Translations under genes and position numbers: made by a program | Shown here: piece by piece, positions 2,780-50,381 of the stretch | Numbering within the stretch: position 1 is the stretch's first letter | Layout of the letters: each line of letters begins with the position of its first letter | DNA from: Bifidobacterium sp. N4G05 | Lineage (GTDB): Bacteria > Actinomycetota > Actinomycetes > Actinomycetales > Bifidobacteriaceae | Length of the DNA stretch: 64,000 bases | Direction: 5' to 3' | NCBI RefSeq assembly: GCF_002742445.1 | Contig: NZ_NJNQ01000003.1 | Location: forward strand, 248,001 to 312,000 | Notes under the pieces: model-generated | Seen by the model: the letters and a program-made list of their open reading frames with translations, nothing else | What the model was told of the DNA's origin: nothing | The model's database searches: none

Positions 2780-4471
2780 TCAGTCGTTCTGGGAATCCTG
2801 ATCATAGTTGTTCGTGTCGGACACCTGCGACACGAGCTGTCCGAGGAATTCGGTAAGACGCGCGCGGTATTCGGTTTCGAACTGCTTGAGGCCCTGAATG
2901 TTACCTTCGATGACCTTGGTCTGCGCTTCGAGATTGTCGCGGACCTGCTGAGCATAATCGTCGGCTGCGGTACGGGTCTTCGAATCGTAGTCGAAGGCAC
3001 GCTTCTGCACTTCGGACTCGTACTCGTCGGCTTCGTTGTGCTTCGTGGAGAAGTAGGTATCGCCATCCTGGGTCTTCTGTACAAGGTAGGCATCGCCCTC
3101 CTGAGTCTTCTGATCCAGATAAGCATCACCATCCTGGGTCTTCTGCGCAAGGTAGGCATCGCCCTCCTGAGTCTTCTGATCCAGATAAGCATCACCATCC
3201 TGGGTCTTCTGCGCAAGATAAGCATCACCATCCTGGGTCTTCTGCGCAAGATAAGCATCGCCCTCCTGAGTCTTCTGATCCAAGTAGGCGTTACCCTCCT
3301 GAGTGCGCTGTGCCAGGTAGTCATCGCCTTCTTGGGCACGCTTGGCCAAGTACGCGTCGCCTTCCTGAGTCTTCTGGTTCAGGTAACCATCAGCCTTGGC
3401 ACGGGTGTCGGCCGAATACTGATCAGCATCGGAACGGGTGCTTTCGGAATAGTTGTCAGCCTCGAAACGAGTACGGTTGGAGTAGTCGTTGGCATTGCCG
3501 ATGAGCTCATCGTACTTGCGCTGGGACTCGTCGGTAATTTCCTTGGCCTTGGCCTTGCCCTTGTCGACATACTGGTCGTGCAGCTGCATGGCCAAGGTCA
3601 GCATGGCGGTGGCGCGCTCCGGCTCCGTATTAGCGGTGGCTGCGGCTCCTGCGATCTTCTGCAGGCTTCCGGTTTCGGTGCTCGGCTCGACCTTGGCGAC
3701 CTGCTCGCGCAGCTGGGCTTCACGCTGCTGCGATTCCTGCAGCTGCTGTGCAAGCTGCTGAATCTGCGCGGCCTGCTGCTGGGCACGCTCATCCTGCTGC
3801 TGGGACTGTGCCGCATGCTGCTGCGTGAGCTGCTGAGCTTGGGCGACCTGCTCCTGAGCCTCTTCAAGCCTTGCATTGAGCTGCTGGATCTCAGCCGCCT
3901 GCTGCTGGGCCACCACAACCTGCTGCTGGGCGGAAGCCAGCTGACGGGACAGGTCTTCGGTCTGCGCACGGAATGCGTCGCGCTCATGCTGCATGGAGGT
4001 CAGCTGTTCGCCCAAATCCGCCTGGCCGGCAGCTTCAGCCGCCTGTGCGGTGAGCTGGTCAACCTGTGCGGACAGACGATCCACCTGATCCTTGAGCTGT
4101 TCGTTCTGAGCCGACAGAGCACGGTTGCTTTCCTCAGCCTCGGTAAGCTTGGCTGCTGCGACCTGAGCTGCCTGAGCTGCCTGATCACCAGCGCCGGCTG
4201 CCTGCTCGGAGGCGGACTTCAATGTCGCGTTCTCCTGCTGCAGGGACTGAACCTGAGCGCTGAGCTCGGAAATCTTGGAGTTGAGCCCCGCAACATCCGG
4301 GCCGAGGGCCTGAGTGGCCTGGCCGCTGGCGACTGCCTGCTTGCCTAGAGCCTCCACCGTCTCGGTTACCTGATCGAGAAAATCGTCGACTTCGTCGACG
4401 TCATACCCCTCTTTGAACCTTACGGTCTGGAAAGTATGCTCTCTGATATCTTTCGGCGTCAACAGAGCCAT
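2780..4471 (-). CDS. DivIVA/Wag31-type polar growth scaffold with 11-residue repeats
   Basis: Cytoplasmic coiled-coil scaffold that in actinobacteria marks poles and septa and guides cell-wall growth. The N terminus MALLTPKDIREHTFQTVRFKEGYDVDEVDDFLD is a DivIVA membrane-binding domain. A long Gln/Ala-rich coiled coil follows (about residues 65-250), then a middle domain, then ten tandem 11-residue units of the form QKTQEGDAYLA encoded at about 3047-3376. I chose ATG 4471 because the DivIVA domain begins there and GCGAGGTG precedes it; an in-frame extension to 4576 exists but reads unlike the family. At 563 residues it is much longer than typical Wag31 because of the coiled coil and repeats. 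It follows yggT in the division cluster. Confidence 0.9.
   Translation of the reverse strand: MALLTPKDIREHTFQTVRFKEGYDVDEVDDFLDQVTETVEALGKQAVASGQATQALGPDVAGLNSKISELSAQVQSLQQENATLKSASEQAAGAGDQAAQAAQVAAAKLTEAEESNRALSAQNEQLKDQVDRLSAQVDQLTAQAAEAAGQADLGEQLTSMQHERDAFRAQTEDLSRQLASAQQQVVVAQQQAAEIQQLNARLEEAQEQVAQAQQLTQQHAAQSQQQDERAQQQAAQIQQLAQQLQESQQREAQLREQVAKVEPSTETGSLQKIAGAAATANTEPERATAMLTLAMQLHDQYVDKGKAKAKEITDESQRKYDELIGNANDYSNRTRFEADNYSESTRSDADQYSADTRAKADGYLNQKTQEGDAYLAKRAQEGDDYLAQRTQEGNAYLDQKTQEGDAYLAQKTQDGDAYLAQKTQDGDAYLDQKTQEGDAYLAQKTQDGDAYLDQKTQEGDAYLVQKTQDGDTYFSTKHNEADEYESEVQKRAFDYDSKTRTAADDYAQQVRDNLEAQTKVIEGNIQGLKQFETEYRARLTEFLGQLVSQVSDTNNYDQDSQND
3047..3376 (-). repeat. ten tandem 33-bp coding repeats in the DivIVA-like gene
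   Basis: Ten consecutive 33-base units, each encoding a variant of (Q/K)(K/R)(T/A)Q(E/D)G(D/N)(A/D/T)Y(L/F)(A/D/V/S). Units differ mainly at the E/D and A/D positions, while several neighbours are nearly identical in DNA (for example the runs around 3110-3250), which favours recombination between units. An 11-residue period is that of a hendecad coiled coil. Unit boundaries were counted by hand from the translation. Confidence 0.9.
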
Positions 4472-4579
4472 AAATCTTACACCTCGCTTTGGGCTTGATG
4501 CCTTGCTGTTGTTGCTTTCATTTGTTGACTCTAGCACGGAACCACCGATTTTTTGCGAAAAATCGGCATTTGACATGCA

Positions 4580-4861
4580 TTAAATGAGGAAATCAATAAC
4601 AATGAGAATGAAATAAAGAACGATGAATGCCACATCGAAATAAATAGGACCCATTGGAATAGGGCGGATATATTGGCGTAGCCAGCGCAGTGGAGGCTCT
4701 GTCAACTGGTAAACCGCGTCAATCAGCGACGACGCCAACCCCCGTGGACGCCATGCCGACGCCAACACAGCTATCCAATCGAGAATCATGCGAATGAACA
4801 GCACCAGAATGTAGGCATTCACCAGAAAGTGAACGACGCTACCGATCAAAGTCAAAATCAT
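4580..4861 (-). CDS. YggT family membrane protein
   Basis: Small integral membrane protein of the YggT family, found beside sepF and divIVA in most Gram-positive division clusters; its biochemical role is not established. About 93 residues with two hydrophobic segments (roughly residues 1-25 and 68-92) separated by a loop that contains the family pattern YQLTEPPLRWLRQYIRPIPMGPIYFDVAFI. I chose ATG 4861 rather than the TTG at 4879, because MILTLIGSVVHF matches the usual N terminus of the family; the ribosome site before it (GGTGGTG) is weak. It lies between sepF and the DivIVA gene, and a hairpin at 4891 separates it from sepF. Confidence 0.88.
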   Translation of the reverse strand: MILTLIGSVVHFLVNAYILVLFIRMILDWIAVLASAWRPRGLASSLIDAVYQLTEPPLRWLRQYIRPIPMGPIYFDVAFIVLYFILIVIDFLI

Positions 4862-4890
4862 GGAGCACCACCATAGCAACAGAACATAAC

Positions 4891-4954: not shown

Positions 4955-5434
4955 TCAGTCGGCGAACAAATCGTGCGACGAGCTATTCACCTGCGGTTCC
5001 TCAACCTTGATATTCACTTGAGCTGGGCTAAGCAGGAACACACGCGGAGTGACACGTTCGATGGAGCCACGCACGCCGAAAACCACACCCGCGGAAAAGT
5101 CCACAATACGATACGCCACGGCCTCGGCAACGCCAGTTAGGTTCAGCACCACCGGAACGCCGTCGCGAATGGCACGTCCGACCAGCTGCGCATCCTCATA
5201 GGACTTCGGGTGAATCGTGGTGATACGGCTCACCCTTCCACCTTGGAACGGGTTGGCTTTGGTCTGCTCGCGCGGTGCGGACGTCGCGGCAGGCGTCGAA
5301 GCCATCGGGGTCACAGAATGATCGGAATCGAACGAGGTTTCGCCGCTCTCAGCCTCCTCGTTAAAATCCTCGTCACCCTCGGCAACGTCGGTCATGCCCA
5401 AATAGGACATCGCGCTTTTCATAAAACCTGCCAT
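4955..5434 (-). CDS. sepF: cell division protein SepF
   Basis: Membrane-anchoring partner of FtsZ that aligns filaments at the septum; in actinobacteria, which lack FtsA, it is the main FtsZ tether. 159 residues: an N-terminal amphipathic stretch (MAGFMKSAMSYLGM), an acidic linker (about residues 18-65), and the SepF fold (about 70-150) with the family block KSYEDAQLVGRAIRDGVPVVLNL and DFSAGVVFG. It lies 30 bases downstream of ftsZ in the same direction, the canonical arrangement. Length and motifs are normal. Confidence 0.95.
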   Translation of the reverse strand: MAGFMKSAMSYLGMTDVAEGDEDFNEEAESGETSFDSDHSVTPMASTPAATSAPREQTKANPFQGGRVSRITTIHPKSYEDAQLVGRAIRDGVPVVLNLTGVAEAVAYRIVDFSAGVVFGVRGSIERVTPRVFLLSPAQVNIKVEEPQVNSSSHDLFAD

Positions 5435-5464: not shown

Positions 5465-6715
5465 TTAGCGCAGGAAATCCGGAATATCCAAATCGCCGGC
5501 GTCGTTCGAAGACACCACTTCATGCTCGGTGGTCTGATCGAATGACGGAACGACGGGTTCCGGAGTGGACGGAACATAAGTGGACAGCGGCTGCACCTTC
5601 GGGGCTTCCGGAGTCTGAATGAGCTGAGGCTGCTGCGGAGCCGCCGCCCTCGGAGCAGCAGCTCTCGGAGCCGCGGACAGCGCCGACAGCGGAATCGTAT
5701 CTTCCGCAGGCTCGGCCTGCTTCTGGGCCTCGGCCTGAGGGGCCTTCTTGGAGTTGGCATCGAAGCCTGCGGCGATGACAGTGACACGCACTTCGTCGCC
5801 ATAGGCGTCGTCGAGGGAAAGACCCCAAATGATCTGCGCTTCCGGATGGATGGCCTTGCCCACCAGCTGAGTGGCGGCAGCCGCTTCCTGCAGCTTCAGG
5901 TCGGACGGACCCGCGATGTTGATCAAAGCGCCATGAGCACCCTCGATGCTTTCTTCCAGCAGCGGAGAGCTGATGGCGATTTCGGCGGCCTGGGTGGCGC
6001 GATCCTCGCCCCGGGCGGAACCGATGCCGAACAGTGCGGTGCCTGCGCCACGCAGAATGGCGTTGACGTCGTTGAAGTCGACGTGAATGTAAGAATTGGA
6101 GGAAATCAGGTCCGTGATGCCCTGCACACCTGCCAGCAATGCAGTGTCGGCGGTCTTGAACGCGTCGACGATACCAATGGTGCGATCGGAAAGCTCAAGC
6201 AGTCGATCGTTCGGAATCACAATCAGTGCATCGACTTCCTTGCGCAGATTCTCAATGCCAAGTGCTGCGGAAGCCGCACGCTGGGGACCTTCAAAGCCGA
6301 ACGGACGGGTAACCACCGCAATGGTCAACGCACCCTGCTGGTGTGCGGCACGAGCTACGATCGGGCTTGCGCCGGTACCGGTGCCACCACCCTCACCGCA
6401 GGTCACGAACACCATATCGGCGCCCTTGAGCGATTCCTCGATATCAGACTGATGATCCTGAGCGGCTTTAGCGCCCTTCTCCGGGTCGGCACCGGCGCCA
6501 AGACCACGGCTGGTGGCATCGTTCAAGGAGATCTTGACATCAGCGTCGGAACGCATCAGATCCTTCGCGTCGGTATTGATCGCAATAAATTCAACACTTT
6601 GAAGACCCTCGGCAATCATGCGATTGACGGCATTACCGCCAGCTCCACCAACACCGACAACCTTGATATTCGTCTTGTCGTTGAAATTGTCAGTCTGGGC
6701 AATCTCGCTCACCAT
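5465..6715 (-). CDS. ftsZ: cell division GTPase FtsZ
   Basis: Tubulin-like GTPase that forms the Z ring. 416 residues: GTP-binding GVGGAGGNAVNRM near residue 21, the tubulin signature GGGTGTGASP at about residues 109-118, the T7-loop region in DLISSNSYIHVDFNDV, a proline/alanine-rich linker (about 325-400), and the conserved C-terminal peptide DLDIPDFLR that binds SepF. It is the first gene of the minus-strand cluster; 174 bases separate it from dusB, so its promoter probably lies in 6716-6889. No unusual features. Confidence 0.98.
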   Translation of the reverse strand: MVSEIAQTDNFNDKTNIKVVGVGGAGGNAVNRMIAEGLQSVEFIAINTDAKDLMRSDADVKISLNDATSRGLGAGADPEKGAKAAQDHQSDIEESLKGADMVFVTCGEGGGTGTGASPIVARAAHQQGALTIAVVTRPFGFEGPQRAASAALGIENLRKEVDALIVIPNDRLLELSDRTIGIVDAFKTADTALLAGVQGITDLISSNSYIHVDFNDVNAILRGAGTALFGIGSARGEDRATQAAEIAISSPLLEESIEGAHGALINIAGPSDLKLQEAAAATQLVGKAIHPEAQIIWGLSLDDAYGDEVRVTVIAAGFDANSKKAPQAEAQKQAEPAEDTIPLSALSAAPRAAAPRAAAPQQPQLIQTPEAPKVQPLSTYVPSTPEPVVPSFDQTTEHEVVSSNDAGDLDIPDFLR

Positions 6716-9858: not shown

Positions 9859-10039
9859 CGTACAAACCCCATACACATATTTACATATCCATGGTTTAGC
9901 AGAATCTAAACAACAATAACTATGTAATTATCTGCTGTTTAAGATGGATCATAACCACAGATGTGAATCACCTCGAGCAAGGCATCCACGTCAGTAGTAC
10001 AGTGTCAGGGCCTTTGTATAGGTTGGATACGTTATGTAC

Positions 10040-10128
10040 ATGCAGGGGGGCTTCCGACGAAAGTGGGAGCTGAGATAGGCGAATGCCTGACCCTTTGAAC
10101 CTGTTGGTTAGGACCAACGTAGGGAGCA
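10040..10128 (+). promoter_or_regulatory. TPP (thiamine pyrophosphate) riboswitch
   Basis: THI-box sense RNA in front of thiM. The conserved CTGAGA occurs at 10070-10075, followed by ACCCTTTGAACCTG at 10090-10103 and GGTTAGGACCAACGTAGGGA, all in the canonical order and spacing. The element ends only a few bases from the thiM ATG and AGGGAGCAGACA is the ribosome site, so ligand binding probably blocks translation initiation directly. Confidence 0.95.
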
Positions 10129-10132
10129 GACA

Positions 10133-11002
10133 ATGAGCGATGACTCATTTTCGGCAACGTTGCGCGAACAGATTGCACAGGCAGTCAACAACGTACGAAC
10201 GACCACGCCTTTGGCGCAGTCGTTCACCAATTTCGTCACGATGAATCTTGTGGCCAACGCACAGCTTGCCGCCGGAGGCACTGCCGCCATGAGCTTTCTA
10301 CCGGACGATGTAATCGACACCGCGGAAATCGCAGGATCGAACTACATCAATGTGGGCACGTTGCTGCCGTTCTTCAAAGATGCGCTGCCGGAAATCGCCT
10401 ACAAACTACACAAGAACGGCAAGACGTGGGTGCTTGACCCGGTCGCCGCGGGCATCGGAAAAACCCGTACCGCCATTCTCGAATCGTTCCGCACCTATCC
10501 GCCGACCATCGTGCGCGGCAATGCGAGCGAGATCATCGCACTCGATGCGATGTGGGGTCTTGCACAAAACGATTCCACCGTTCCCGGCACGCGTCCGGCA
10601 GGCGTGGAGGCTGTGGACGAGGTCGATGCAGCTGTTGACGCAGCCAAACGAGTGGCTCGTCATCTTGCCAAACACTCCCCCACCGGCGCCGGTGCGGTGG
10701 CCGTTTCCGGAGCAGTCGATCTGGTGACCAACGGCGAGCATGTGTTCCGTCTGCCAGGCGGCAGCGCGATGATGACGAAGATCATCGGCGCCGGCTGCTC
10801 ACTTGGCGGCGTTACCGCAACATACTTGGCCGTAGCGGAACCGTTGGTAGCTGCGATTTCCGCTTCACTGCTGTACAACAGGGCTTCCGAAATCGCCGAA
10901 GCGAAATCTTCAGGCCCGGGGTCCTTCCAAGTAGCGCTGCTCGATGCGCTTTGGAACGTCACAGCCGAGGAAGTCGCCGCCTCCGAAATCATCGTCGACT
11001 AG
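10133..11002 (+). CDS. thiM: hydroxyethylthiazole kinase
   Basis: Phosphorylates 4-methyl-5-(2-hydroxyethyl)thiazole, the salvage route to the thiazole half of thiamine. 289 residues: TTPLAQSFTNFVTMNLVANAQLAAGGTAAMS near the N terminus, KTWVLDPVAAGIGKTRTA, VRGNASEIIAL, and the ATP/active-site region MMTKIIGAGCSLGGVTA with the catalytic Cys. The TPP riboswitch directly before it shows feedback control by thiamine pyrophosphate. It is the first gene of a thiM-thiD-thiamine-binding-protein set. Confidence 0.95.
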   Translation: MSDDSFSATLREQIAQAVNNVRTTTPLAQSFTNFVTMNLVANAQLAAGGTAAMSFLPDDVIDTAEIAGSNYINVGTLLPFFKDALPEIAYKLHKNGKTWVLDPVAAGIGKTRTAILESFRTYPPTIVRGNASEIIALDAMWGLAQNDSTVPGTRPAGVEAVDEVDAAVDAAKRVARHLAKHSPTGAGAVAVSGAVDLVTNGEHVFRLPGGSAMMTKIIGAGCSLGGVTATYLAVAEPLVAAISASLLYNRASEIAEAKSSGPGSFQVALLDALWNVTAEEVAASEIIVD

Positions 11003-13633: not shown

Positions 13634-13707
13634 ATTGCAACACTTCTGAGAAGCGTTGCAATTATTGACGTCAATCGATTGACGTCAATCGTTTGACACG
13701 CTATTAT
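13634..13707 (+). promoter_or_regulatory. sugar permease promoter with two operators
   Basis: Two identical 12-base palindromes ATTGACGTCAAT at 13664-13675 and 13678-13689. The second contains a -35 box TTGACG (13679-13684), which stands exactly 17 bases before a -10 box TATTAT (13702-13707). A further imperfect palindrome with arms ATTGCAAC/GTTGCAAT lies upstream at 13634-13662 (one mismatch). A repressor bound at 13678-13689 would cover the -35, as expected for the LacI protein encoded just upstream. Confidence 0.75.
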
Positions 13708-28637: not shown

Positions 28638-29023
<386 letters not shown>

Positions 29024-35879: not shown

Positions 35880-36758
35880 TTATTTGCTCAAGTGAACGCC
35901 TCGATTGATGATTTCCTGAACCGTTTCATCATCGGTGAGGTTCTCCCCCAGCACGTTCGGCTTGCCTTTGCCGTGCCAGTCGGATCCACCGGTTACCAGC
36001 AGATCATGCTTGCCGGCAATGGCAAGCAGCCGCTCACGCTGCTCGGGTGGATTGCCGCGATGCCACACTTCCAAACCGTCCAACCCTTCGGTGATGAGAG
36101 ATTCGATTTGCCGGTCAGTCAGCAGGGTCCGGTTACGCCGGGGGTCTCCGGCGTGGGCGATAACCGTCACCCCGCCCGCACCCTTGACCGCGGCCACCAC
36201 GTCATGTGTGGTCGGCGATGGCGTGGGAATGTAATATTTCGACGTCGCGCTCACCGCGTCGGCGAACGCGTCGGATCGCGTTTCATACACGCCGGCAGCC
36301 ACCAATGCGTCGGCGATATGCGGCCGACCGATCGTGGTGCGTTTGCCTTCACGCACCTGCGCGAGCACATCATCCCACGTAATCGGAAAATCCTGCGCCA
36401 TCAGTTCGACCATGCGCTTGGTTCTACGCAGTCGCGCCTCGCGGGTGGACGCGAACATCTCGCTGATATTGGCGTTCAACGGATCATATTGGAACGCAAG
36501 CATATGCACGGACACATTGCCGTCGACGGCGGTGATTTCCGTGCCACGCAACAACGGCAATCCAATCTCCTGCGAAGCGGCCAACGCATCCTGCCAACCG
36601 GAGGTCGTGTCATGATCGGCAATCGCAACACCATGCAATCGCAATGATCGTGCCTCTTTCAGCAACACACGCGGCGTTTCCGTACCGTCGGAAAAAACGG
36701 TATGACAGTGAATGTCCCAACCTTCAGCGGGCGGTGCCGCAGTGCCTACGCGAATCAT
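35880..36758 (-). CDS. PHP-domain phosphoesterase (RNase AM/TrpH-like)
   Basis: Metal-dependent phosphoesterase; relatives include 5'-3' exonuclease RNase AM and 3',5'-nucleotide bisphosphatase. About 292 residues: WDIHCHTVFSDGTETP with the first metal His pair, VAIADHDTTSGW, LLRGTEITA, VTVIAHAGDPRR and LLVTGGSDWHGKGKP complete the PHP metal site. ATG 36758 (MIRVGTAAPP) is chosen. Divergent from the VKOR gene. Confidence 0.9.
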   Translation of the reverse strand: MIRVGTAAPPAEGWDIHCHTVFSDGTETPRVLLKEARSLRLHGVAIADHDTTSGWQDALAASQEIGLPLLRGTEITAVDGNVSVHMLAFQYDPLNANISEMFASTREARLRRTKRMVELMAQDFPITWDDVLAQVREGKRTTIGRPHIADALVAAGVYETRSDAFADAVSATSKYYIPTPSPTTHDVVAAVKGAGGVTVIAHAGDPRRNRTLLTDRQIESLITEGLDGLEVWHRGNPPEQRERLLAIAGKHDLLVTGGSDWHGKGKPNVLGENLTDDETVQEIINRGVHLSK

Positions 36759-36848
36759 GTATCCATCGTAAGCTGTTCTTCGTCGCAACGCGGCACAATA
36801 CCGCGTAAACTAGGCGATGACAACGTTTGTATTTTGATTCAAGGATGC

Positions 36849-37517
36849 ATGATGAGCGATTTCCCCGGCGGACTGGTTGCCGAAGCCACTCTCGACGATG
36901 ATTATACGAAACCGCGCGGCTGGCGTCACGGCGCCACTTGGACGTATCTGATTATGCTGGTCGCTTCGGCAGTCGCGCTGGTCGTATCGTTCGTGCTTTC
37001 CGCCGAGACACTGAAATTGGCTCGCAATCCCGGTCAAAAGCTCAGCTGTGATGTGAATGCCGTGATGTCGTGTTCCACGGTTGCGGAATCGTGGCAGGCT
37101 GAGATTGTGAAGTTCGCCGGTTTGAGTTTCCCGAATGCGTTCTTCGGTATCGCCGCGGAATCAGTGTTTGTAACGATTGCGGTGATTGGATTGATGAAGG
37201 TTGCCGTGCCTCGCTGGTTTGCGTTGTGCACATGGCTGGGTGGACTGGCCGCGCTGGCTTATTCGTATTGGCTGACCTCGCAGTCGCTGTTTGTGATCAA
37301 CGCGCTATGCCCGTGGTGCCTGTGTCTGATGTTCTCCACTACCGTGCAGTTCATGGCGTTGTCTCATGCCACGACGGTGGTTCAGGGGATTCCGGCCAAA
37401 GGTGCGGGCGTACGCACTTACTACCGTCTTAATTACGATCTAATGGTCGATGCCGTATGGATTGTGGCATTGATCGTGATCATTCTCGTCAAGGATGGCC
37501 CGATGCTGTTCAGCTGA
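36849..37517 (+). CDS. vitamin K epoxide reductase (VKOR) family membrane protein
   Basis: Quinone-linked membrane thiol oxidase that can reoxidise a DsbA-like protein to make disulfides in secreted proteins. About 222 residues, five hydrophobic segments. The first Cys pair is CDVNAVMSCS and the redox motif is CPWC in NALCPWCLCLMF. The start is ATG 36849 or the adjacent ATG 36852, after AAGG. No thioredoxin domain is fused. A terminator shared with dapF follows. Confidence 0.92.
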   Translation: MMSDFPGGLVAEATLDDDYTKPRGWRHGATWTYLIMLVASAVALVVSFVLSAETLKLARNPGQKLSCDVNAVMSCSTVAESWQAEIVKFAGLSFPNAFFGIAAESVFVTIAVIGLMKVAVPRWFALCTWLGGLAALAYSYWLTSQSLFVINALCPWCLCLMFSTTVQFMALSHATTVVQGIPAKGAGVRTYYRLNYDLMVDAVWIVALIVIILVKDGPMLFS

Positions 37518-37560
37518 CGTCAGCCAACAATCTATGCAATATCAAATATTTGCCTGAATA

Positions 37561-37596
37561 CAAGAGAAGCCGACTGGAAACAGCCGGCTTCTCTTG
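37561..37596. terminator. bidirectional terminator between VKOR gene and dapF
   Basis: CAAGAGAAGCCG / CGGCTTCTCTTG, 12-base stem with a 12-base loop, between convergent genes. Confidence 0.85.
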
Positions 37597-37658
37597 TATT
37601 TATTTGCGGATTTCGGTTTCTCATATGAGATTCGCGCGAAAACCGTCTTACAGCAGTC

Positions 37659-38558
37659 TTACAGCAGTTCGATTTTTCCGACGATGGTGGCCGATCCGGT
37701 GAGTTTCACATCGTCGTCGGTCACGTCGACGCGCAAGGTGCCGCCACGTACGGTGATCGTCCAATGGTCGATGCCTGTTTTGGCACGCAGGGTGATGGCG
37801 GTGGCGCACAGGCCCGTACCGCACGACAGCGTTTCGCCGCAGCCGCGCTCGTTGACGCGCATGGTGGCGCTGCCCTCGTTGTCGCCTTCGCTTTGTTCGT
37901 CGATACGCACGAATTCAACGTTCTGGTCGCTTTCGATCTGGGGCGAGACGACCGGCTTGGTCACCAGATCAAGCTGTTCCACGGTCGGCAGGCTGGAGAA
38001 CGCGTCTTCGATGACGGCGACCACATGCGGATTGCCCATGTCCACGAACGTGCCTCGCGCGGAACCCTTGGTTCCCGGAATCGTTACCTCGTAGAAGTCG
38101 AGGTCACCACGCTTCCACGCGCCCATTTCCACCTGGAACACGTCGTTGCCGAGGCCGGGCACATTGCCGAGCGACGTCAGCACTTTCACGCCGGCGCGCG
38201 TGCCAAGGCGGAATGGTTTGCCACCCGGCTGGTCGGCGATACCCTGGCGTTGCGCGAACAGGGTGATGGCTCGTGTGCCGTTGCCGCACATTTCGGCCAA
38301 TGATCCGTCGGCGTTACGGTAGTCCATGAACCATTGCGCGTCCCCGGCAGCGCATTCGTCCACTTGGGCATCATTCAGGTCGGAAACGTCTTTCGGGTGG
38401 GCGAGACGAATCAGTCCGTCGCCGCCAATGCCGAAATGACGGTCGCACAGCATTCGCACTTCGTCGGCGGTCGGCTCATACGCTCCTTCGGGGTCAACAT
38501 ACACCACGAAATCGTTGCCTGTGGCGTGCGCTTTGTAAACAATGTTCGGAATGCTCAT
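37659..38558 (-). CDS. dapF: diaminopimelate epimerase
   Basis: Makes meso-diaminopimelate from the L,L form for lysine (and, where used, peptidoglycan). 299 residues: YKAHATGNDFVVYVD, first catalytic Cys in LAEMCGNGTRAITLF and second in GCGETLSCGTGLCATAI. Normal length. Divergent from murI, another amino-acid racemase-type cell-wall gene. Confidence 0.95.
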   Translation of the reverse strand: MSIPNIVYKAHATGNDFVVYVDPEGAYEPTADEVRMLCDRHFGIGGDGLIRLAHPKDVSDLNDAQVDECAAGDAQWFMDYRNADGSLAEMCGNGTRAITLFAQRQGIADQPGGKPFRLGTRAGVKVLTSLGNVPGLGNDVFQVEMGAWKRGDLDFYEVTIPGTKGSARGTFVDMGNPHVVAVIEDAFSSLPTVEQLDLVTKPVVSPQIESDQNVEFVRIDEQSEGDNEGSATMRVNERGCGETLSCGTGLCATAITLRAKTGIDHWTITVRGGTLRVDVTDDDVKLTGSATIVGKIELL

Positions 38559-38624
38559 ACCAATTCACTCTACACGCGGTAGGCTATTGGAGGCAGGCTA
38601 AGTCTGGCAATCGCAGGAGGAATC

Positions 38625-39401
38625 ATGACTTCAACGGCACCAATCGGCGTATTCGACTCCGGTTTGGGAGGTATTTCCGTGGTCCGTGAGATCCGCCATA
38701 ACATGCCGAATGAGCGTGTGCTCTATTTCGGCGACTCCGCAAACGCCCCATATGGCACGAAATCTCCGGAACAGGTGCGCGACCTGTCGAACACCATCGT
38801 GGAGCGTTTCGTGAAACAAGGTGTGAAAGCGGTGGTGATCGCCTGCAATACCGCAACTTCCGCAGCAGCCAACGAACTGCGCGACCGCTACGACATTCCG
38901 ATCATCGGCATGGAACCGGCATTGAAAGTGGCATGCGACCGTGGTGAGGGCCATCGTCAGCGCGTGATCGTGGCCGCCACTCCCCTTACGTTGCGCGAGA
39001 AGAAATTCGCCGTGTTGATGGACCGGTTCAAAGCCGATCATACGATTTTTCCGGAACCATGCCCCGGTTTGGTGGAGATCGTCGAACATGGCCTGCTTGA
39101 CAATCATGACACGGTGATGCGCACGTTGCATGAGTATTTCGACCAGTATGATTTGTCGACGATTGATTCGGTAGTGCTTGGCTGCACGCATTTCGTGTTC
39201 TATCGTGACTATTTCCGCGAATTGCTGCCGAGTTCAGCTGCGATCATCGACGGTAACGCCGGTACCGTGCGCCATCTTGGCGTGGTGCTCGAATCGTTGG
39301 GCAAACTTGCGCCGGACCATGCCGACGGCGGTATTGAACTTGCGAATTCAGACACTTGCGAACGAATTGCACGGTTAGCACAGTCGCTGCTCGATCGCTG
39401 A
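38625..39401 (+). CDS. murI: glutamate racemase
   Basis: Makes D-glutamate for peptidoglycan. 258 residues: [28 protein letters not shown], first catalytic Cys in [15 protein letters not shown] and second in [25 protein letters not shown] is the ribosome site. Downstream lies a fragment of a phospholipase gene. Confidence 0.96.
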
Positions 39402-39464
39402 TCGGCGAATGAGCGCAAATGTCCTCAATACGCGCGTAGAGTCAAGAAAACAGCAGCTTCAGAG

Positions 39465-39638
39465 AACGATGAAGTGGTGTTGGCCAAGGAATACGAGAAA
39501 GACGGCCGCGTGCTTATTCTCGCACCGGAAAGCCTGTATGGTTTAAGCACGTTGAGCAAGTCGTTCGAAGGTTTGGAACGCATGTACCGCGCGGGCCATG
39601 CGGCGGCCGAGGCCATTCCCTCATTCCTGGAAAGCTGA
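39465..39638 (+). pseudogene. 3'-end remnant of a patatin-like phospholipase gene
   Basis: An in-frame fragment ending at TGA 39636 encodes EVVLAKEYEKDGRVLILAPESLYGLSTLSKSFEGLERM... and matches the last 55 residues of the intact phospholipase at 42683-43531 with only a few changes. The DNA is about 90 percent identical by eye, including an unbroken run near 39543-39590. Nothing upstream of 39465 resembles the rest of the gene and no start is present. Confidence 0.85.
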
Positions 39639-39807
39639 GGATGGCGTCCGCACACGCATTGGATGCGGACACGCCGTATTCATCGCCTGCGAGCTGTTCG
39701 TTTCCAAATTGAGACGTAACACGAAAATTTTATAAAGCTCCTATATTGTGTCCTATTGTTTTTCGCCGACATAATCGGCGGAAATGCCGACATTAAAGGA
39801 GAATGAA

Positions 39808-41457
39808 ATGAAGAACAACGCGTTCCGTCGACTGCTGGCCATGGCCGCAGCGGGCGCCATGCTGACGTCGATCGCCGCATGCGGCTCGTCGTCCAGCGAT
39901 GACACAGCCTCCAACGGCTCCGATAGCACCTCGCTGATTTCAGTGAACAACAGCGAACCGCAGAACGGCCTAATTCCAAGCGACACCAACGAAATGGGCG
40001 GCGGCAAAGTTATTCGATACCTGTTCGAAGGTCTGGTGAGCTTTGACGCAAAGGGCAAGCAACATCTCGAAGTCGCCGAGAGTATCACCCCGAACGAGGA
40101 TGCCACCACGTACACAATCAAGTTGAAGAAAGGCTGGAAGTTCACCAACGGCGAGGCAGTAACCGCCCATTCCTTCGCCGACACCTGGAGTTTCGCCGCC
40201 AATGTGAAGAACGCGCAGAAGACCGCAAGCCGATTCTCCACCATCAAGGGCTATGACGAGCTGCAGGATCCGAACGTCGATCCGAAGGCCACACTTTCCG
40301 GTCTTTCCACCCCGGACGACTACACGCTGGTCGTCGAGCTGAACAAGCCTGATTCCGTATTCCCGACCAAGCTCGCGCACCAATCCATGTTCCCGCTGCC
40401 AAGCGTGGCATTTAAGGACATCAAGAAGTTCGGTCAGGCTCCGATTGGCAATGGTCCGTACAAGTTCAAGTCCTGGTCCCACGACAAGAACATCATCGTC
40501 GTACCAAACAAGGATTATAAGGGCAGCCGCAAGGTGTCCAACAAAGGCATCGAATACCGCGTCTACACGAATGAGGATTCCGCTTACTCCGACGTGCTGT
40601 CTGGCAACCTCGACGTGATGGATCAGATTCCACAGTCTGCGGTGAAGACCTTCCGTCAGGATTCCAGCGTGATCGCCTACAGCCAGGCAGGATCCTCGTT
40701 CCAGTCCTTCATCATTCCGGAACGTCTTGAGCATTTCGGCAACGACGAAGAAGGCCAGTTGCGTCGTCAGGCCATTTCCATGGCCATCGACCGCGACCAG
40801 ATCGTCAAGAAGGTTTACAACAACACGAAGACCCCGACCACCGATTTCACTTCACCGCTCGTCCCCGAATATGTGAAGAAACTGGAACAGAACGGCAGCA
40901 ACCTGAAATACAACGCTTCCAAGGCCAAGGAACTCTGGAAGAAAGCCAATGCCATCAAGCCATGGTCCGGCAACTTCCGAATCGCCTATAACGCCGATGG
41001 CGGCCATAAGGAATGGGTCGATGCCGTGTGCAACCAGATCAAGAACACACTCGACATCGACGCCGCTGGCGAGCCGTACGCCACGTTCAGCGACGTGCGT
41101 AACCAGGTGACCAACCGCACCATCAAAACCGCGTTCCGTGCCGGCTGGATGCTGGATTACCCGTCCGCTGAAGATTATCTCAATCCGCTATATGCCTCCA
41201 GCTCCGCTGACGGTCATGGTTCGAACGATGGTGATTACAAGAGCGCGGAATTCGACGAGCTCCTGAACGCCGCACTTGCCCAGACCGACGTAAAGAAGCG
41301 AACCGAGGACTTCACCAAGGCTCAGGAAGTGCTGGCCAAGGATCTTCCGGTGATTCCGCTGTGGAACGACAACGTCGCCGCCGTGTCCGCGACGAACGTG
41401 AAGAACGTGTCGTTCGATTACACCAATCTACCTACCTACAACACCATCACTAAGTGA
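39808..41457 (+). CDS. oligopeptide-type ABC substrate-binding lipoprotein
   Basis: Family 5 (OppA/DppA-like) solute-binding protein, cell-surface attached. 549 residues: signal peptide with lipobox LTSIAAC (Cys near residue 25), a short Ser/Asp linker, then NEMGGGKVIRYLFEGLVSFD, the family signature, and DWMLDYPSAEDYLNPLY-like block near residue 450. AAAGGAG precedes ATG 39808. Permease and ATPase genes are not adjacent, so it may work with a transporter encoded elsewhere. Two strong terminators follow. Confidence 0.92.
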   Translation: MKNNAFRRLLAMAAAGAMLTSIAACGSSSSDDTASNGSDSTSLISVNNSEPQNGLIPSDTNEMGGGKVIRYLFEGLVSFDAKGKQHLEVAESITPNEDATTYTIKLKKGWKFTNGEAVTAHSFADTWSFAANVKNAQKTASRFSTIKGYDELQDPNVDPKATLSGLSTPDDYTLVVELNKPDSVFPTKLAHQSMFPLPSVAFKDIKKFGQAPIGNGPYKFKSWSHDKNIIVVPNKDYKGSRKVSNKGIEYRVYTNEDSAYSDVLSGNLDVMDQIPQSAVKTFRQDSSVIAYSQAGSSFQSFIIPERLEHFGNDEEGQLRRQAISMAIDRDQIVKKVYNNTKTPTTDFTSPLVPEYVKKLEQNGSNLKYNASKAKELWKKANAIKPWSGNFRIAYNADGGHKEWVDAVCNQIKNTLDIDAAGEPYATFSDVRNQVTNRTIKTAFRAGWMLDYPSAEDYLNPLYASSSADGHGSNDGDYKSAEFDELLNAALAQTDVKKRTEDFTKAQEVLAKDLPVIPLWNDNVAAVSATNVKNVSFDYTNLPTYNTITK

Positions 41458-41462
41458 TGTTT

Positions 41463-41493
41463 CTGGACGGCGAACGAATGATTCGCCGTCCAG
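41463..41493 (+). terminator. first terminator after the peptide-binding protein gene
   Basis: CTGGACGGCGAA / TTCGCCGTCCAG, perfect 12-base stem, seven-base loop, six bases after the stop. Confidence 0.8.
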
Positions 41494-41503
41494 AAAGGGA
41501 GCT

Positions 41504-41554
41504 AAAGCACAGCGGGGTTCGAATCCTTCATGGATTCGAACCCCGCTGTGCTTT
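41504..41554. terminator. long bidirectional terminator
   Basis: Perfect 23-base stem (41504-41526 with 41532-41554) around a five-base loop TTCAT; AAAGCACAGCGGGG at one end and its complement at the other. It separates the convergent peptide-binding and asparaginase genes. Confidence 0.9.
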
Positions 41555-41588
41555 TGTGACTTGTTTTTGACGGTTTGCCGCTACAGTA

Positions 41589-42527
41589 TCAACTCTGCAC
41601 GTAGCTGCCCTTCGGAGACTTCCAACCGCAGTTCATCATCTCGCTATTGAATACCATCGCGCCTTCACCGTGCGCCGGAACGACGATCATACCGCCATCG
41701 CCATGATGACGGGCGACACCATCCAGCGCCGCCTTCGCAGCCTCGACCGGCTCCTCCTTGGCGTACAGAACGCGATCAGAAACCTGATGCGCAGCGACTT
41801 CCTTGACGAACGCCTCACCGATGCCGGTGCAGGAGATCGCGACGGAATCGTTGTTGGCATAGGTGCCACAGCCCGGCAGGGGCGAATCGCCGACGCGTCC
41901 CGGCATCTGGTTGGTGATGCCACCGGTGGAGGTGCCGGCAGCGATGTTGCCGAACGAGTCGCGGGCGACAGCGCCGATGGTGCCATGCTTCTCCCACTCA
42001 TCGCCGTTGGATTGCGCCTCGCGCAAGGATTCCTGGCGTGCCGGAGTGATGAAATATTCGCTGTCGCACAGTTCGATTCCCCACTCCTTAAGCAAATCAT
42101 TACCGGGCTTGGCAAACATGACATGCTTGGTCTTTTCCTTGATGGCACGCGCTACGTTGATCGGATTCTTAGACGTGGTCAGACCACACGCGGAACCGAC
42201 CTCGCCATCGACACCGGTCATCAGGCAGGAATCCATGGATACGATGCCTTCGCTCGTCAATGCAGCACCACGACCAGCGTTGAACTCCGGAGCATCCTCC
42301 ATAACACGGATAGCCGCGCACACGGCATCCTCCGCCGGCGCACCCTGCTCCAGCAGCGCATAGCCAGCTTCAAGAGCCCTGTTCAAATCCTGCTCCACCT
42401 GGGCACGACGTTCCGGCGTATCCTTTTTGCCACGATTGCCGGCACCCGCGTGAATCACCAGCAGAATCCCGTCCGGATCAGCTTGGGCGATGTGGACCGT
42501 CGACTGAGGCAGTGCAGCTTCGTTCAT
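41589..42527 (-). CDS. isoaspartyl peptidase / L-asparaginase (Ntn-hydrolase type)
   Basis: Plant-type asparaginase that cleaves isoaspartyl dipeptides and asparagine; it matures by autocleavage. 312 residues from ATG 42527 (MNEAALPQSTVHI), preceded by GGAGAAG; an upstream in-frame stretch is not family-like. The nucleophile Thr lies in KHGTIGAVARDSFGNIAAGTSTGG near residue 178; GRVGDSPLPGCGTYA and CTGIGEAFV are substrate-site blocks. Divergent from the phospholipase gene. Confidence 0.92.
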   Translation of the reverse strand: MNEAALPQSTVHIAQADPDGILLVIHAGAGNRGKKDTPERRAQVEQDLNRALEAGYALLEQGAPAEDAVCAAIRVMEDAPEFNAGRGAALTSEGIVSMDSCLMTGVDGEVGSACGLTTSKNPINVARAIKEKTKHVMFAKPGNDLLKEWGIELCDSEYFITPARQESLREAQSNGDEWEKHGTIGAVARDSFGNIAAGTSTGGITNQMPGRVGDSPLPGCGTYANNDSVAISCTGIGEAFVKEVAAHQVSDRVLYAKEEPVEAAKAALDGVARHHGDGGMIVVPAHGEGAMVFNSEMMNCGWKSPKGSYVQS

Positions 42528-42682
42528 TGATATCTTCTCCACTCCATTTTTATTGATTGTTCGCAGATATCTTACGTCGTTCTTCGCTAAGAAATGACCG
42601 AATACGCAGAAATACGTCAATTAGACCGCGTAAAGTCAATTGAACCCGCAAAAGGGACGGACGGCGAAAGGACGGGGCGCAT

Positions 42683-43531
42683 ATGGCTCACAGGACGGCA
42701 ATGATCGACGTCGGCGGCGGTTTCCGCGCGATCTACGGTGCGGGCGTGATGGACCGCATGCTTGAGGACGGCATCAGCGTCGACCATTGCTACGGCGTTT
42801 CCGCAGGCAGCGCCAACATGGTCTCGTTCATCGCGAAGCAGCACGGGCGCAACCACACGTTCTACACGCAGTACGCGTTCCGCAAGGAGTACGCGAGCTT
42901 CGACAGCTACGTCAAGAACCATAATTTCGCCAACCTCGACTACGTGTATAGCACGCTCAGCAATCATGATGGTGAAAATCCGGTTGACTACGCGGCTTTC
43001 GAAGCCAACCCGACCGATTTCACCGTGGTTGCGTGCAACGCCGAAGACGGCTCCACGAAGTATTTCAGCAAGTCCGACGTGAGCTACGACAATTTCGATA
43101 TCATGAAGGCGTCATCAGCAGTGCCGGTAGCTTGCGAACCGTATGCGATCGATGGCGTCCCCTATTACGACGGCGGCATCGCCGATCCGATTCCGGTGCA
43201 GAAGGCCATCGATGACGGCTACGACCGTATCGTGGTGATACTCACCCGCCCGAAAGACACCGTACGCGAACAGAAGAGGGACATCGGCCCGGCCAGGATT
43301 TTGAAGCGCAGCCACCCCGAAGCCGCGGAAAAACTGCTCAACCGTTATCAGAAGTACAACGACGAAGTGGCGCTGGCCAAGGAATACGAGCAGGACGGCC
43401 GCGTGCTCATCCTCGCGCCGGAAAGCCTGTACGGCCTGAACACGTTGAGCAAGTCGTTCGAAGGTTTGGAACGCATGTACCGCGCGGGCTATGCGGCAGC
43501 CGAGGCCATTCCCGCATTCCTAAAAAGTTGA
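42683..43531 (+). CDS. patatin-like phospholipase
   Basis: Serine acyl hydrolase of the RssA/YjjU-type patatin family. 282 residues: glycine-rich oxyanion loop DVGGGFRAIYGAGV, nucleophile Ser in CYGVSAGSANM (near residue 41), catalytic Asp in YYDGGIADPIPV. No signal peptide or anchor, so cytoplasmic or peripheral. Its 3' end has a broken second copy at 39465-39638. The LysR gene starts 13 bases after its stop, suggesting cotranscription. Confidence 0.9.
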   Translation: MAHRTAMIDVGGGFRAIYGAGVMDRMLEDGISVDHCYGVSAGSANMVSFIAKQHGRNHTFYTQYAFRKEYASFDSYVKNHNFANLDYVYSTLSNHDGENPVDYAAFEANPTDFTVVACNAEDGSTKYFSKSDVSYDNFDIMKASSAVPVACEPYAIDGVPYYDGGIADPIPVQKAIDDGYDRIVVILTRPKDTVREQKRDIGPARILKRSHPEAAEKLLNRYQKYNDEVALAKEYEQDGRVLILAPESLYGLNTLSKSFEGLERMYRAGYAAAEAIPAFLKS

Positions 43532-43544
43532 GCACTACCCTTAT

Positions 43545-44561
43545 ATGAACACTCCAGCCGATAGCAACACGCGCGAAAACGCCAACACGAACACCGACAT
43601 CAGCATCACCGCGAATGCCACGGGATTCAGCACGAAAACACTGAACCCGCAGATTCTCGTGACCTTGTGGAATGTGGAACGTTTGGGTTCGTTCTCCGCG
43701 GTCGCGCGCGAAACCGGCTGGTCGCAACCGGCCATCAGCCAACAGATCCGCAAGGTCGAACGCGAACTTGACGCAAAACTCGTGCAGCGCACGTCGCATG
43801 GGGTGGGATTAACGCCGATCGGCCGTATTCTGGCACGCCACGGGCAGCTCATCGACAATCGTGTTACGCAGGCCGTCAAAGATGTGGAGGAATACCAGCG
43901 CAACGGATCGACGCATATTCGCCTAGTCGCTCCCCCATCGGTATGCTCGTCGTTCGTGGCGCGCGTACTCGTGCATATCAGCAAAACGTCCGACATTCGC
44001 GTGAGCCTCATGCAGATGGAGCCGCCTGAGGCCATGGACGCGTTGGAACAGGGGCTTGCCGATTGCGCGATCATCTTCCAATACAATTCACTGCCCGCCT
44101 TAGTTGGTCCGGACGATTTGGAAGTCTCCCCCTTCGGTATCGATCCGCTGATGCTGCTGATCGGCGCGAACAACACGATCGCACGCCAGTATGAAAGCTC
44201 GCATCTGCCGGTCCAGCTGGTTTCGGCACGCGGCGAACAGTGGATCGCCGGCTGTGAGACCTGTCAGGCGAATCTGGTGTCGTTGGCGCATGCCGCCGGT
44301 TTCACGCCGGAGATTACGCATTCGACCGATGATTTTTGGGCAACGCAGAATCTTGTGGAAGTCGGCATGGGCGTCTCGATCGTATCCCGTTTAGCCACAA
44401 CCGCTGGAATGCAGTCCAATCTGGCCGCACTGCCGATTGCCGACAACAACGCATTCCGTACCGTCTGTTTCGTCACAAGAAAAGCTGACGACCGACCGTC
44501 AGTGGCCCGCGTCAAAGACGAAATCGAAAAGGCGTCACATCAGTATTTGGAAAGCATCTGA
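43545..44561 (+). CDS. LysR-family transcriptional regulator
   Basis: 338 residues: N-terminal winged helix-turn-helix VERLGSFSAVARETGWSQPAISQQIRKVERELDAKLVQRT (about residues 44-83) after an unusual 38-residue Asn/Thr-rich leader, then an effector-binding domain. The leader may mean that the true start is internal, but no better ribosome site is visible. Lies between phospholipase and PatB-like genes; targets unknown. Confidence 0.88.
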   Translation: MNTPADSNTRENANTNTDISITANATGFSTKTLNPQILVTLWNVERLGSFSAVARETGWSQPAISQQIRKVERELDAKLVQRTSHGVGLTPIGRILARHGQLIDNRVTQAVKDVEEYQRNGSTHIRLVAPPSVCSSFVARVLVHISKTSDIRVSLMQMEPPEAMDALEQGLADCAIIFQYNSLPALVGPDDLEVSPFGIDPLMLLIGANNTIARQYESSHLPVQLVSARGEQWIAGCETCQANLVSLAHAAGFTPEITHSTDDFWATQNLVEVGMGVSIVSRLATTAGMQSNLAALPIADNNAFRTVCFVTRKADDRPSVARVKDEIEKASHQYLESI

Positions 44562-44750
44562 TTCGCTTCTGATTCCCTGATTGCGGAATGCTGATGCGAG
44601 CGAATGTTTCTTGTATTTTTCAGCATCGACATGATCAGATTAATAATTGAATAGCAAAAGCATCTGATATAAGAAAACTTCATAACCATCTCTGCTTTCA
44701 GCACAAGAACACACTGTTCTTTCACCCAACGCGTACGTCATGCTGGAACC

Positions 44751-45977
44751 ATGGAAGAAATCATGGATATCAAGCATCGTACCGATTCCGGCTTTAACGC
44801 CGACGCCATCGACCACACCACCGCAGCCGACCTTGCCGAAGTCGGCTCCGACAAGTGGACACGCTACCCCGGCTGCATCGGCGCGTTCATCGCCGAAATG
44901 GACTACGGCCTAGCACCCTGCATTCAGGAAGCCATCGACAACGCTTGTGACCATTGCAAACTCGGCTACATTCCCGAACCTTGGAAACAACGCGTGGCAG
45001 AGGCATGCGCAGGCTGGCAGCGCACACATTACGGCTGGGATGTGGATCCCAGTATCATTCGCGTGGTTCCCGACGTGCTTGAGGCATACGAGGTCTTCCT
45101 GCGCGAACTAGTCGGCGCAGGCAACAGCGTGATCGTGCCGACACCTGCCTACATGCCGTTCCTAAGCGTGCCGAAACTCTATGACGTCAATGTGATCGAA
45201 ATCGAAATGCTGCAAAGCAGCGACGCCGAAACCGGTGAGGCGCAGTGGCTGTTCGATTTCGACGCCATTGAACGCGCGTTTGCGGCCGGATGCCATGCGT
45301 TCGTGCTCTGCAACCCGCACAACCCGATCGGCAAAGTGCTCACCTTGGAAGAGGAGCTGCGTCTGAGCGATCTTGCGGCACAGTATGACGTGCGTATTTT
45401 CAATGATGAGATTCATGCGCCGTTCGTGTTTGAGGGCAAGCACATTCCGTTCCCCACCATCAGCGAGCAGGCCGCATTACAGTCGATGACCGCTACCAGC
45501 GCGTCGAAATCGTTCAATATTCCGGGCACGAAGTGCGCGCAGGTGCTGCTTACCAATCCTGCGGATCGTGACATGTGGGCGGTCAAGGCGGAGTGGAGCG
45601 AACATCAGACCGCCACCATCGGCGCAATCGCCACCACCACCGCATATAACGAAGGTGATCCGTGGTTCCAGGACGCGTTCGCCTACGTGCGTAGGAATAT
45701 TGCCCTGTTCGATGAGCAGATGCGTGAGCGGTTCGCCGGAATCGGCTATATCAAACCGCAGGGCACATATATCGCATGGCTTGATTTCTCGCCGCTTGGC
45801 ATCGAAGACCCGGCCACATACTTCCTTGAGAAAGCGCAAGTGGCGCTAACCGATGGACGCTCATGCGGCGAGGCAGGTGTCGGATGCGTGCGTGTGAACG
45901 TGGCAATGCCCTATCCGCTGCTGGTTGAATGCTTGGACCGAATGTTCAACGCATTGCACGCCGACGGATTATTGTAG
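44751..45977 (+). CDS. PatB/MalY-type PLP aminotransferase, probable cystathionine beta-lyase
   Basis: Fold-type I PLP enzyme; the PatB/MalY group mostly cleaves C-S bonds of cystathionine or cysteine. 408 residues: WIAEMDY-like start FIAEMDYGLAPCIQEAI, LCNPHNPIGKVLTLEEL-like block, FNDEIHAPFVFEGKHIPF, and the PLP Lys in ATSASKSFNIPGTKCAQ. The start may be ATG 44751 or 44763. The last gene before the CRISPR region; strong terminator at 46077. Confidence 0.88.
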   Translation: MEEIMDIKHRTDSGFNADAIDHTTAADLAEVGSDKWTRYPGCIGAFIAEMDYGLAPCIQEAIDNACDHCKLGYIPEPWKQRVAEACAGWQRTHYGWDVDPSIIRVVPDVLEAYEVFLRELVGAGNSVIVPTPAYMPFLSVPKLYDVNVIEIEMLQSSDAETGEAQWLFDFDAIERAFAAGCHAFVLCNPHNPIGKVLTLEEELRLSDLAAQYDVRIFNDEIHAPFVFEGKHIPFPTISEQAALQSMTATSASKSFNIPGTKCAQVLLTNPADRDMWAVKAEWSEHQTATIGAIATTTAYNEGDPWFQDAFAYVRRNIALFDEQMRERFAGIGYIKPQGTYIAWLDFSPLGIEDPATYFLEKAQVALTDGRSCGEAGVGCVRVNVAMPYPLLVECLDRMFNALHADGLL

Positions 45978-49500: not shown

Positions 49501-50381
49501 GCGACTGATACCACCGCCATGCTGTCCAAACTGGTGGAATTTCAATCCACGCTCTCCATGAGGAGAGCGACCGGTCGATGTCGAGCCGCAGCCGGCCGAC
49601 GTGAGATTTCAATCCACGCTCTCCATGAGGAGAGCGACCAATGCAATGCTCATGCCAATCATGATACTACGATTTCAATCCACGCTCTCCATGAGGAGAG
49701 CGACTGGCATTGGCGACTGTCTTGTCCGAGAGCAGGTCGATTTCAATCCACGCTCTCCATGAGGAGAGCGACCCGTATTCTTGTGGATATCCTGCATAGT
49801 CTTCCGCATTTCAATCCACGCTCTCCATGAGGAGAGCGACCTGCACTTGAGCACTCAATATTATCCGATTTTCGACATTTCAATCCACGCTCTCCATGAG
49901 GAGAGCGACATGTTCGTCTTTTATTTGGGGCGTACCATGCGAATTTCAATCCACGCTCTCCATGAGGAGAGCGACGGAAATCCTCACCGCACTTGGAGCG
50001 GACAACGTAATTTCAATCCACGCTCTCCATGAGGAGAGCGACGGCTATTACTTTTACACAATGGATTGACCAGACGAATTTCAATCCACGCTCTCCATGA
50101 GGAGAGCGACTACCGGGCGCTGGGGTTCAGGGTACGGCCTTCCATATTTCAATCCACGCTCTCCATGAGGAGAGCGACTACACCACACGTCGATAGGTTC
50201 CGACGATATGGCATTTCAATCCACGCTCTCCATGAGGAGAGCGACTTGATGCGTTTTGGGCATGGTGGGCGTATGTCCAAATTTCAATCCACGCTCTCCA
50301 TGAGGAGAGCGACCTTTTCGGTCGCTCTCCTCATGGAGAGCGTGGATTATTTCAATCCACGCTCTCCATGAGGAGAGCGAC
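46512..50381 (-). CRISPR. type I-C CRISPR array, 58 repeats and 57 spacers
   Basis: 33-base repeats with spacers of about 32-37 bases, counted by hand. In transcribed (minus) orientation the repeat starts GTCGCTCTCCTCATGGAGAG and ends CGTGGATTGAAAT, a standard type I-C repeat with an 8-bp hairpin. Repeats numbered from the low-coordinate (oldest) end: repeats 8-58 have loop TCAT; 1 and 5-7 have TCAC; 2-4 (46579-46748) have a covarying stem CACTCCCC/GGGGAGTG and loop GCAA. Spacer 39 (49105-49136) and spacer 42 (49304-49337) are the same sequence with different lengths. The leader-proximal spacer 57 (50314-50348) is copied from the array itself. Confidence 0.98.

Follow-up and report, generated by a model that had tools for sequence, protein, structure and literature searches.

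An expanded hendecad rod in the DivIVA of Bifidobacteriaceae that appears to change length by whole 11-residue units

Introduction

The divIVA gene of Bifidobacterium sp. N4G05 contains a 33-bp tandem repeat, and the question that this locus raises is whether the repeat is a stretch of DNA that is free to slip in length or part of a protein rod whose geometry limits how its length can change. In bifidobacteria DivIVA is regarded as a marker of the cell ends that grow, and in other Actinomycetota it is essential. The first-pass annotation of the window, by which we mean the whole 64,000-nucleotide stretch of DNA analysed here, had proposed that the repeat gives DivIVA a length-variable rod of hendecads. 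A hendecad consists of 11 residues, which complete three turns of helix and span about 1.6 nm, and coils built from hendecads are hard to predict and have been little studied. Here we describe the repeat in the window, follow it through the family and the class, and weigh what it may do in the protein.

Results

The divIVA gene of the window

The gene shows the features of the DivIVA/Wag31 family, namely an N-terminal DivIVA domain, a neighbourhood of ftsZ, sepF and yggT, and a C-terminal coil ending in L--FE--YR (Table 1). The linkage of divIVA to the ftsZ-sepF-yggT cluster is described in a review of actinobacterial genomes (PMC4255298). With a match to Pfam PF05103 of 35.8 bits against a cut-off of 28 (E 9.4e-9), and with yggT, sepF and ftsZ nearby, the identification as DivIVA made in the first pass stands. 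A signal peptidase II gene lies downstream, and the nearest named relative of the protein, that of B. catenulatum subsp. kashiwanohense, is 96% identical in the alignment, so that the host probably belongs to the B. catenulatum group. The open frame would also permit an earlier ATG at 4576. An error in the gene call is ruled out by the 563 open residues, the conserved start and the conservation of both of the anchors that flank the repeat.

Table 1. Features of the divIVA locus, in positions of the window and residues of the 563-residue protein.
Feature	Position	Strand	Basis
divIVA, 563 aa from ATG at 4471	2780..4471	-	Pfam DivIVA, ORF, MALLTPKDI start conserved among relatives
DivIVA domain, residues 4-134 (Pfam span)	4070..4462	-	Pfam
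Gln/Ala-rich coil, residues 61-262, overlapping the Pfam span	3686..4291	-	Hydrophobic period 3.47, near heptads
Hendecad run, residues 297-527, between the LHDQYV and LK-FE--YR anchors	2891..3583	-	Anchors, translation
Ten similar units, residues 366-475, partly amplified as 66-bp pairs	3047..3376	-	TRF, direct repeats
Unit GDAYLDQKTQE	3098..3130	-	DNA identical to 3164-3196
Second copy of the GDAYLDQKTQE 33-mer	3164..3196	-	DNA identical to 3098-3130
Conserved C-terminal helix, residues 528-551	2819..2890	-	Alignment, class-level comparison, AlphaFold
YggT-family membrane protein gene, adjoining divIVA	4580..4879	-	
sepF	4955..5434	-	
ftsZ	5465..6715	-	

The direct repeats keep a 33-base register over 3053-3304, with a weaker likeness continuing to 3376. 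When the window was scanned with TRF a period of 33 was found at 3053-3277 (82% matches, score 268) and a period of 66 at 3059-3304 (86%, score 345), and a period of 99 also scored. Only the CRISPR array at 46853-49840 reaches comparable scores within the window, all other rows being at 61 or below. Translation of the minus strand gives exactly ten 11-residue units of the QKTQEGDAYLA type, as the first-pass annotation had read them, and its remark that some units are nearly identical in DNA is borne out by one 33-mer that stands twice, 66 bases apart, with zero mismatches (Table 1). In extent, however, the annotation fell short, since the ten units are the most alike portion of a run that is about twice as long, with 21 eleven-residue blocks, and is found family-wide. 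Over this whole array the mean DNA identity between units is 53%. The distance from LHDQYV (residue 297) to LKQFETEYR (residue 528) is 231 residues, or 21 blocks of 11, and the block can be written ADxYSxxTRxE with positions a-k, where a is Ala or Gly, d is Tyr and h is Thr, Val or Lys.

The 11-residue period that had been claimed also held. The best hydrophobic period of the window's run, in a segment predicted to be helical with a mean pLDDT of 88.5 (see below), is 3.66, which is near 11/3, and it lies between 3.62 and 3.72 in all 114 arrays, as against a median of 3.47 for the upstream coil. Heptads as the repeat of the array are ruled out by this period. A repeat by chance is likewise ruled out, by the tandem-repeat scores, the 33-base register and the phase in the 196 loci described in the next section.

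Elsewhere in the window, the long CRISPR array at 46853-49840 has the repeat ATTTCAATCCACGCTCTCCATGAGGAGAGCGAC (tandem-repeat consensus), and near it lies a Cas1 gene of subtype I-C (51124-52158, PADLOC Cas1c, E 2e-149). Across the array from Cas1, seven ORFs at 36702-45977 were searched against the PADLOC models, with no match. A TPP riboswitch (10034-10142) and a tRNA gene (28638-28711) were the sole Rfam matches at the gathering score, and a short tandem, ATTGACGTCAATCG, at 13664-13697 (2.4 copies, 95% match) is possibly a paired regulator site.

Spacing of the anchors across the family and the class

To describe the array in other genes we used the distance from LHDQYV to LK-FE--YR. In the Bifidobacterium group, Gardnerella included, all 196 loci had a distance divisible by 11, and it took 13 values from 121 to 253 residues, or 11-23 blocks. 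The loci cover all 112 genus genomes together with 80 named loci, some genes having been fetched twice, and they hold 110 distinct arrays and 114 proteins. The same was true of all 40 genes from other genera of Bifidobacteriaceae, which we picked by hand among the 67 matching genomes of these genera; the 10 genomes lacking a match were all less than 90% complete. Genera here are database codes, so that some of the "other-genus" genomes are named Bifidobacterium in NCBI. Together the 114 and 40 proteins give 153 distinct sequences.

Amongst 50 class-level loci from Actinomycetes, the 38 that carry both anchors share one hendecad phase, at distances of 47, 58, 69, 80, 102 and 135, though the set is uneven, with 14 of the 38 at a distance of 69, many of them from one genus, and 20 of the 50 loci chosen by us. 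The end anchor is absent in eight loci (L232, L233, L237, L239, L254, L299, L309 and L316) and the start pattern in four (L297, L301, L303 and L306), which by eye are in register and were left uncounted. Because the units repeat in register, a start pattern with its match within the array would fall in phase too, and the count of 38 therefore speaks for a continuous register more than for an exact start. These class-level runs are short, with 4-12 units, 5 or 6 in 30 of the 38, against the 11-23 blocks of the bifidobacterial genes. In family, position in the protein, end motif, hendecad phase and the small residue at a, the bifidobacterial run is like the CC2 (CCD) of actinomycete DivIVA/Wag31.

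Changes in length

On a quick tree of the 153 proteins, built with the array left out, the number of blocks changed at least 48 times. The Gln/Ala-rich coil upstream of the array accepts indels of many lengths when relatives are compared; its length changed at least 50 times among the 96 measurable proteins, a count that excludes the 57 of 153 without an ETGSL anchor, and fell into all residue classes modulo 7 and modulo 11. The two parts of the protein can be set against each other in 49 sister pairs. The array differs in 10 of these, each time by 11 or 22 residues, whereas the upstream part differs in 23, by 1-5, 7, 12, 16 or 21 residues, with none of the 23 differences a multiple of 11 and eight of them multiples of 7. 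Within the arrays of the genes examined neither a length other than a multiple of 11 nor a shift of register was found. Nor did we see compensation between the upstream part and the array, as there was no negative correlation of their lengths (Spearman 0.20, p 0.035, 115 genes, kinship ignored).

The window's gene has 21 blocks, and four genes that are 94.8-96.5% identical to it upstream of the array have 20, 20, 22 and 23. A copy number that varies between strains had been anticipated; variation was found among near-species relatives, with 20-23 blocks in these five genes, while of the pairs at 97% identity or above only one in nine differs. That pair, L002 and L086, belongs to the B. catenulatum group, and the other eight are stable. 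For pairs of distinct genes at 95% identity or above, 4 of 15 differ in block number and none in upstream length, and at 88-92% identity the two measures are level, each differing in 22 of 48 pairs. The genome collections hold one genome per species, so these block counts compare species and not strains, and loci of the same species from two collections, such as L002 and L087 with the same array, can be one gene and are uninformative on strains. A scan of viral contigs for relatives found none. In the B. catenulatum group 33- and 66-bp units are clearly being duplicated.

Residues along the rod

The residue at position d is Tyr in 1177 of the 1190 units counted in the genus set, where the first two units and the last are omitted, and in 320 of 339 units from the 40 genes of other family genera. 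In the class-level set, which takes the last four units of 42 Actinomycete genes with the final one included, it is Tyr in none of 168. The last unit in the genus set has mostly Gln at d (102 of 114). Only position a, with Ala, Gly or Ser in 1173 of the 1190 units, approaches d in constancy, while h is Thr or Val in 873. The class-level units instead have mostly Lys, Arg, Gln or Glu at d, where bifidobacteria have Tyr, and mostly Leu or Ile at h (121 of 168), where bifidobacteria have Thr, Val or Lys. Their apolar positions are a, with Ala in 113, and h; Ala also stands at e in 76. The Bifidobacteriaceae have thus placed a tyrosine at a hendecad position that is polar in other Actinomycetes.

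The usual core pattern of hendecads is given as a, d and h, and small core residues are described as suiting dimeric hendecads (PMC9858780). In the ten units of the window, taken at residues 360-469, Gly is found at a in nine and Lys or Arg at h in all ten. With so weak a core the amplified stretch may coil only weakly or exist as a single helix, and the ten amplified units are the least certain part of the rod.

Structure prediction and structural matches

AlphaFold models of the whole protein consist of long helices with a mean pLDDT of 68.7 and a pTM of 0.28, and the array is broken at residues 404-411. A second job, run on residues 283-551 with 14 long-array relatives, gave two helices with a mean pLDDT of 88.5 and a pTM of 0.60; this was the best of five models, which ranged in pLDDT from 56 to 88, and its break, at residues 414-418, is unlike that of the first job. 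A structure prediction had been put forward as a check on the straight coiled coil expected from the repeat. Run as a single chain, it returned the helix, with the chain split in two. AlphaFold has been reported to bend long coiled coils and to be poor on hendecads (PMC11676326), and with such trouble the break may be an artefact. The models thus support a helical array, and a break in the helix is unproven.

In a search of the PDB with the fold of the second model no match reached E 0.001, and what ranked near the top, above that threshold, was generic coiled coils, Smc segments and chemoreceptors among them. By sequence, all 25 PDB matches of the ten units at E 0.1 or below were alpha-synuclein, as were all nine matches of the full protein at E 0.01 or below. 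The ten units reach a best E of 1.1e-4 and align in 11-residue register through KTxEG. This is most simply the convergence of two 11-residue helical repeats. Searched against the PDB at E 0.1 or below, a profile of the class-level DivIVAs did not find any DivIVA entry. It matched weakly the stalks of ATP synthase subunit b and V-type subunit E (E 0.002 and 0.0073), which were outscored by two designed helical proteins; these peripheral stalks have an unrelated function and lack a DivIVA domain.

Discussion

Relation to known rods

The C-terminal coil of Bacillus subtilis DivIVA is much shorter than the bifidobacterial rod. It also oligomerises, and is described as a tetramer (PMC12585849). Closer in kind are FilP and Scy, in which a DivIVA-like N-terminus is followed by extended hendecads, with many Ala residues in the core as set out by Martinez-Goikoetxea and Lupas (PMC9858780). 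The same account places Scy and some FilP genes in the context of crotonyl-CoA carboxylase/reductase and others (PMC9858780). The window's gene has the DivIVA-like start and the long hendecad rod, but the FilP/Scy gene context is absent; it is a divIVA that lies close to ftsZ and sepF and carries the C-terminal helix of DivIVA. Within the order, a divIVA of a different family (L302) has tandem hendecads of its own, with GQKQHDDLVSK three times and a near copy at 935-1213. Like the bifidobacterial units these have Gly at a, but the unit is a different one and there is no tyrosine row, so amplification of units probably arose more than once.

A functional study of a bifidobacterial DivIVA was not among the matches listed in the open literature, as judged by titles and the starts of abstracts, nor was a description of the array, the 11-residue rule or the tyrosine row, though the hendecad survey of the same authors (J Struct Biol 2023) may hold related cases. 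A phase-locked, expanded DivIVA hendecad rod with a tyrosine row particular to the family would be a new addition to the known hendecad and DivIVA rods.

What the repeat may be

We think it probable that the repeat is an expanded, length-quantised hendecad rod in the C-terminal self-assembly domain of DivIVA, which changes by whole hendecads under a constraint on its phase. Alternatively, the array could be a mutational minisatellite of little function, in which 33-bp slippage lengthens or shortens the protein by 11 residues and any length of helical spacer will do. The near-identical 33- and 66-bp units and the changes of copy number in the B. catenulatum group are consistent with this, as is a unit pair of at least 90% DNA identity in 15 of the 110 arrays, and because slippage of existing units alone gives whole 33-bp changes, part of the 11-residue rule may indeed be mutational. 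However, all 64 arrays without any unit pair at 80% DNA identity stay in phase, over 11-21 blocks, though duplication long ago may underlie them, and the units, at an average of 54% DNA identity across the arrays, yet retain the tyrosine at d and the small residue at a. The minisatellite account also has to face the single phase of the 38 class-level genes and an array without lengths other than multiples of 11, while the upstream part differs by many lengths, and we consider it unlikely. We infer instead that both processes act, with duplication providing the whole units and selection presumably removing the rest.

Other readings keep a structural role but give it to a different surface. The rod might pack through a and h and leave the tyrosine row at d to join rods laterally into a sheet or gel, in which case copy number would set stickiness more than length. 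The near-constant tyrosine of the genus and the other genera, its complete absence from the class-level units and the fact that only position a comes near it in constancy all speak for this reading; Tyr can equally be a core residue, however, as a, d and h are the usual pattern (PMC9858780), and we regard lateral assembly as quite improbable. Still less likely, to our minds very unlikely, is that the amplified units lie on the membrane as a lone amphipathic 11/3 helix, in the manner of alpha-synuclein, and not as a coiled coil. The matches to alpha-synuclein in the KTxEG register and the want of a good coiled-coil core in the amplified units would both fit, but a helix of the alpha-synuclein type would call for lysine-rich 11-mers with a net positive charge, whereas the units carry 0 to −2 each (genus mean −0.79), which is unfavourable for an anionic membrane. 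Units with KTxEG were moreover seen in only some of the species viewed (uncounted), and a match of one repeat to another is, as noted above, most simply convergence.

On the reading that we prefer, that of a length-quantised hendecad rod, the repeat would make the rod in the C-terminal part of DivIVA (Wag31), a polar scaffold, longer. Among the other Actinomycetes examined, the rod is a short hendecad run ending in the conserved helix. In the Bifidobacteriaceae it has 11-23 blocks, and the B. catenulatum group is apparently still altering this number as 33- and 66-bp units duplicate in tandem. The rod would gain about 1.6 nm with every hendecad. Changes by whole hendecads would survive and others would not, because one face of the helix must stay aligned from end to end, so the rod could lengthen or shorten but not turn out of phase. 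The helix at residues 528-551 corresponds to the last part of the second coiled coil in other actinomycete DivIVAs, with a self-assembly role by homology (PMC12585849, PMC12393619). In Kitasatospora a minimised DivIVA is reported to need the second coiled coil for walled growth, and the C-terminal motif has been modelled as joining two dimers antiparallel into a tetramer (PMC12585849); by homology the bifidobacterial run would be the rod leading to the tetramer joint. Homology likewise leads us to infer that this segment forms a coiled coil by pairing and is what drives self-assembly at the pole. Selection presumably enforces the phase of the array, and the length of the rod may set spacing in the scaffold.

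Implications for polar growth in bifidobacteria

A more far-reaching version, which we put forward only tentatively and think on balance doubtful, is that the rod is a molecular ruler with a tyrosine row that changes in steps of one hendecad, the number of units tuning the spacing or stickiness of the scaffold at the pole and hence the shape or branching typical of a species. The face of the rod would, as part of this proposal, have been rebuilt from Ala and Leu at a and h to a small residue, Tyr and Thr at a, d and h.

The family in any case offers a natural series of 11-23 blocks in one scaffold protein, with at least 48 changes of length that kept phase. Such a series makes two questions testable, namely whether it makes a difference what phase the DivIVA rod is in, and whether polar growth depends on the rod's length; the constant tyrosine offers a third test. 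If length were to prove neutral, the array would still be a neat case of a helical rod altered in whole structural repeats only.
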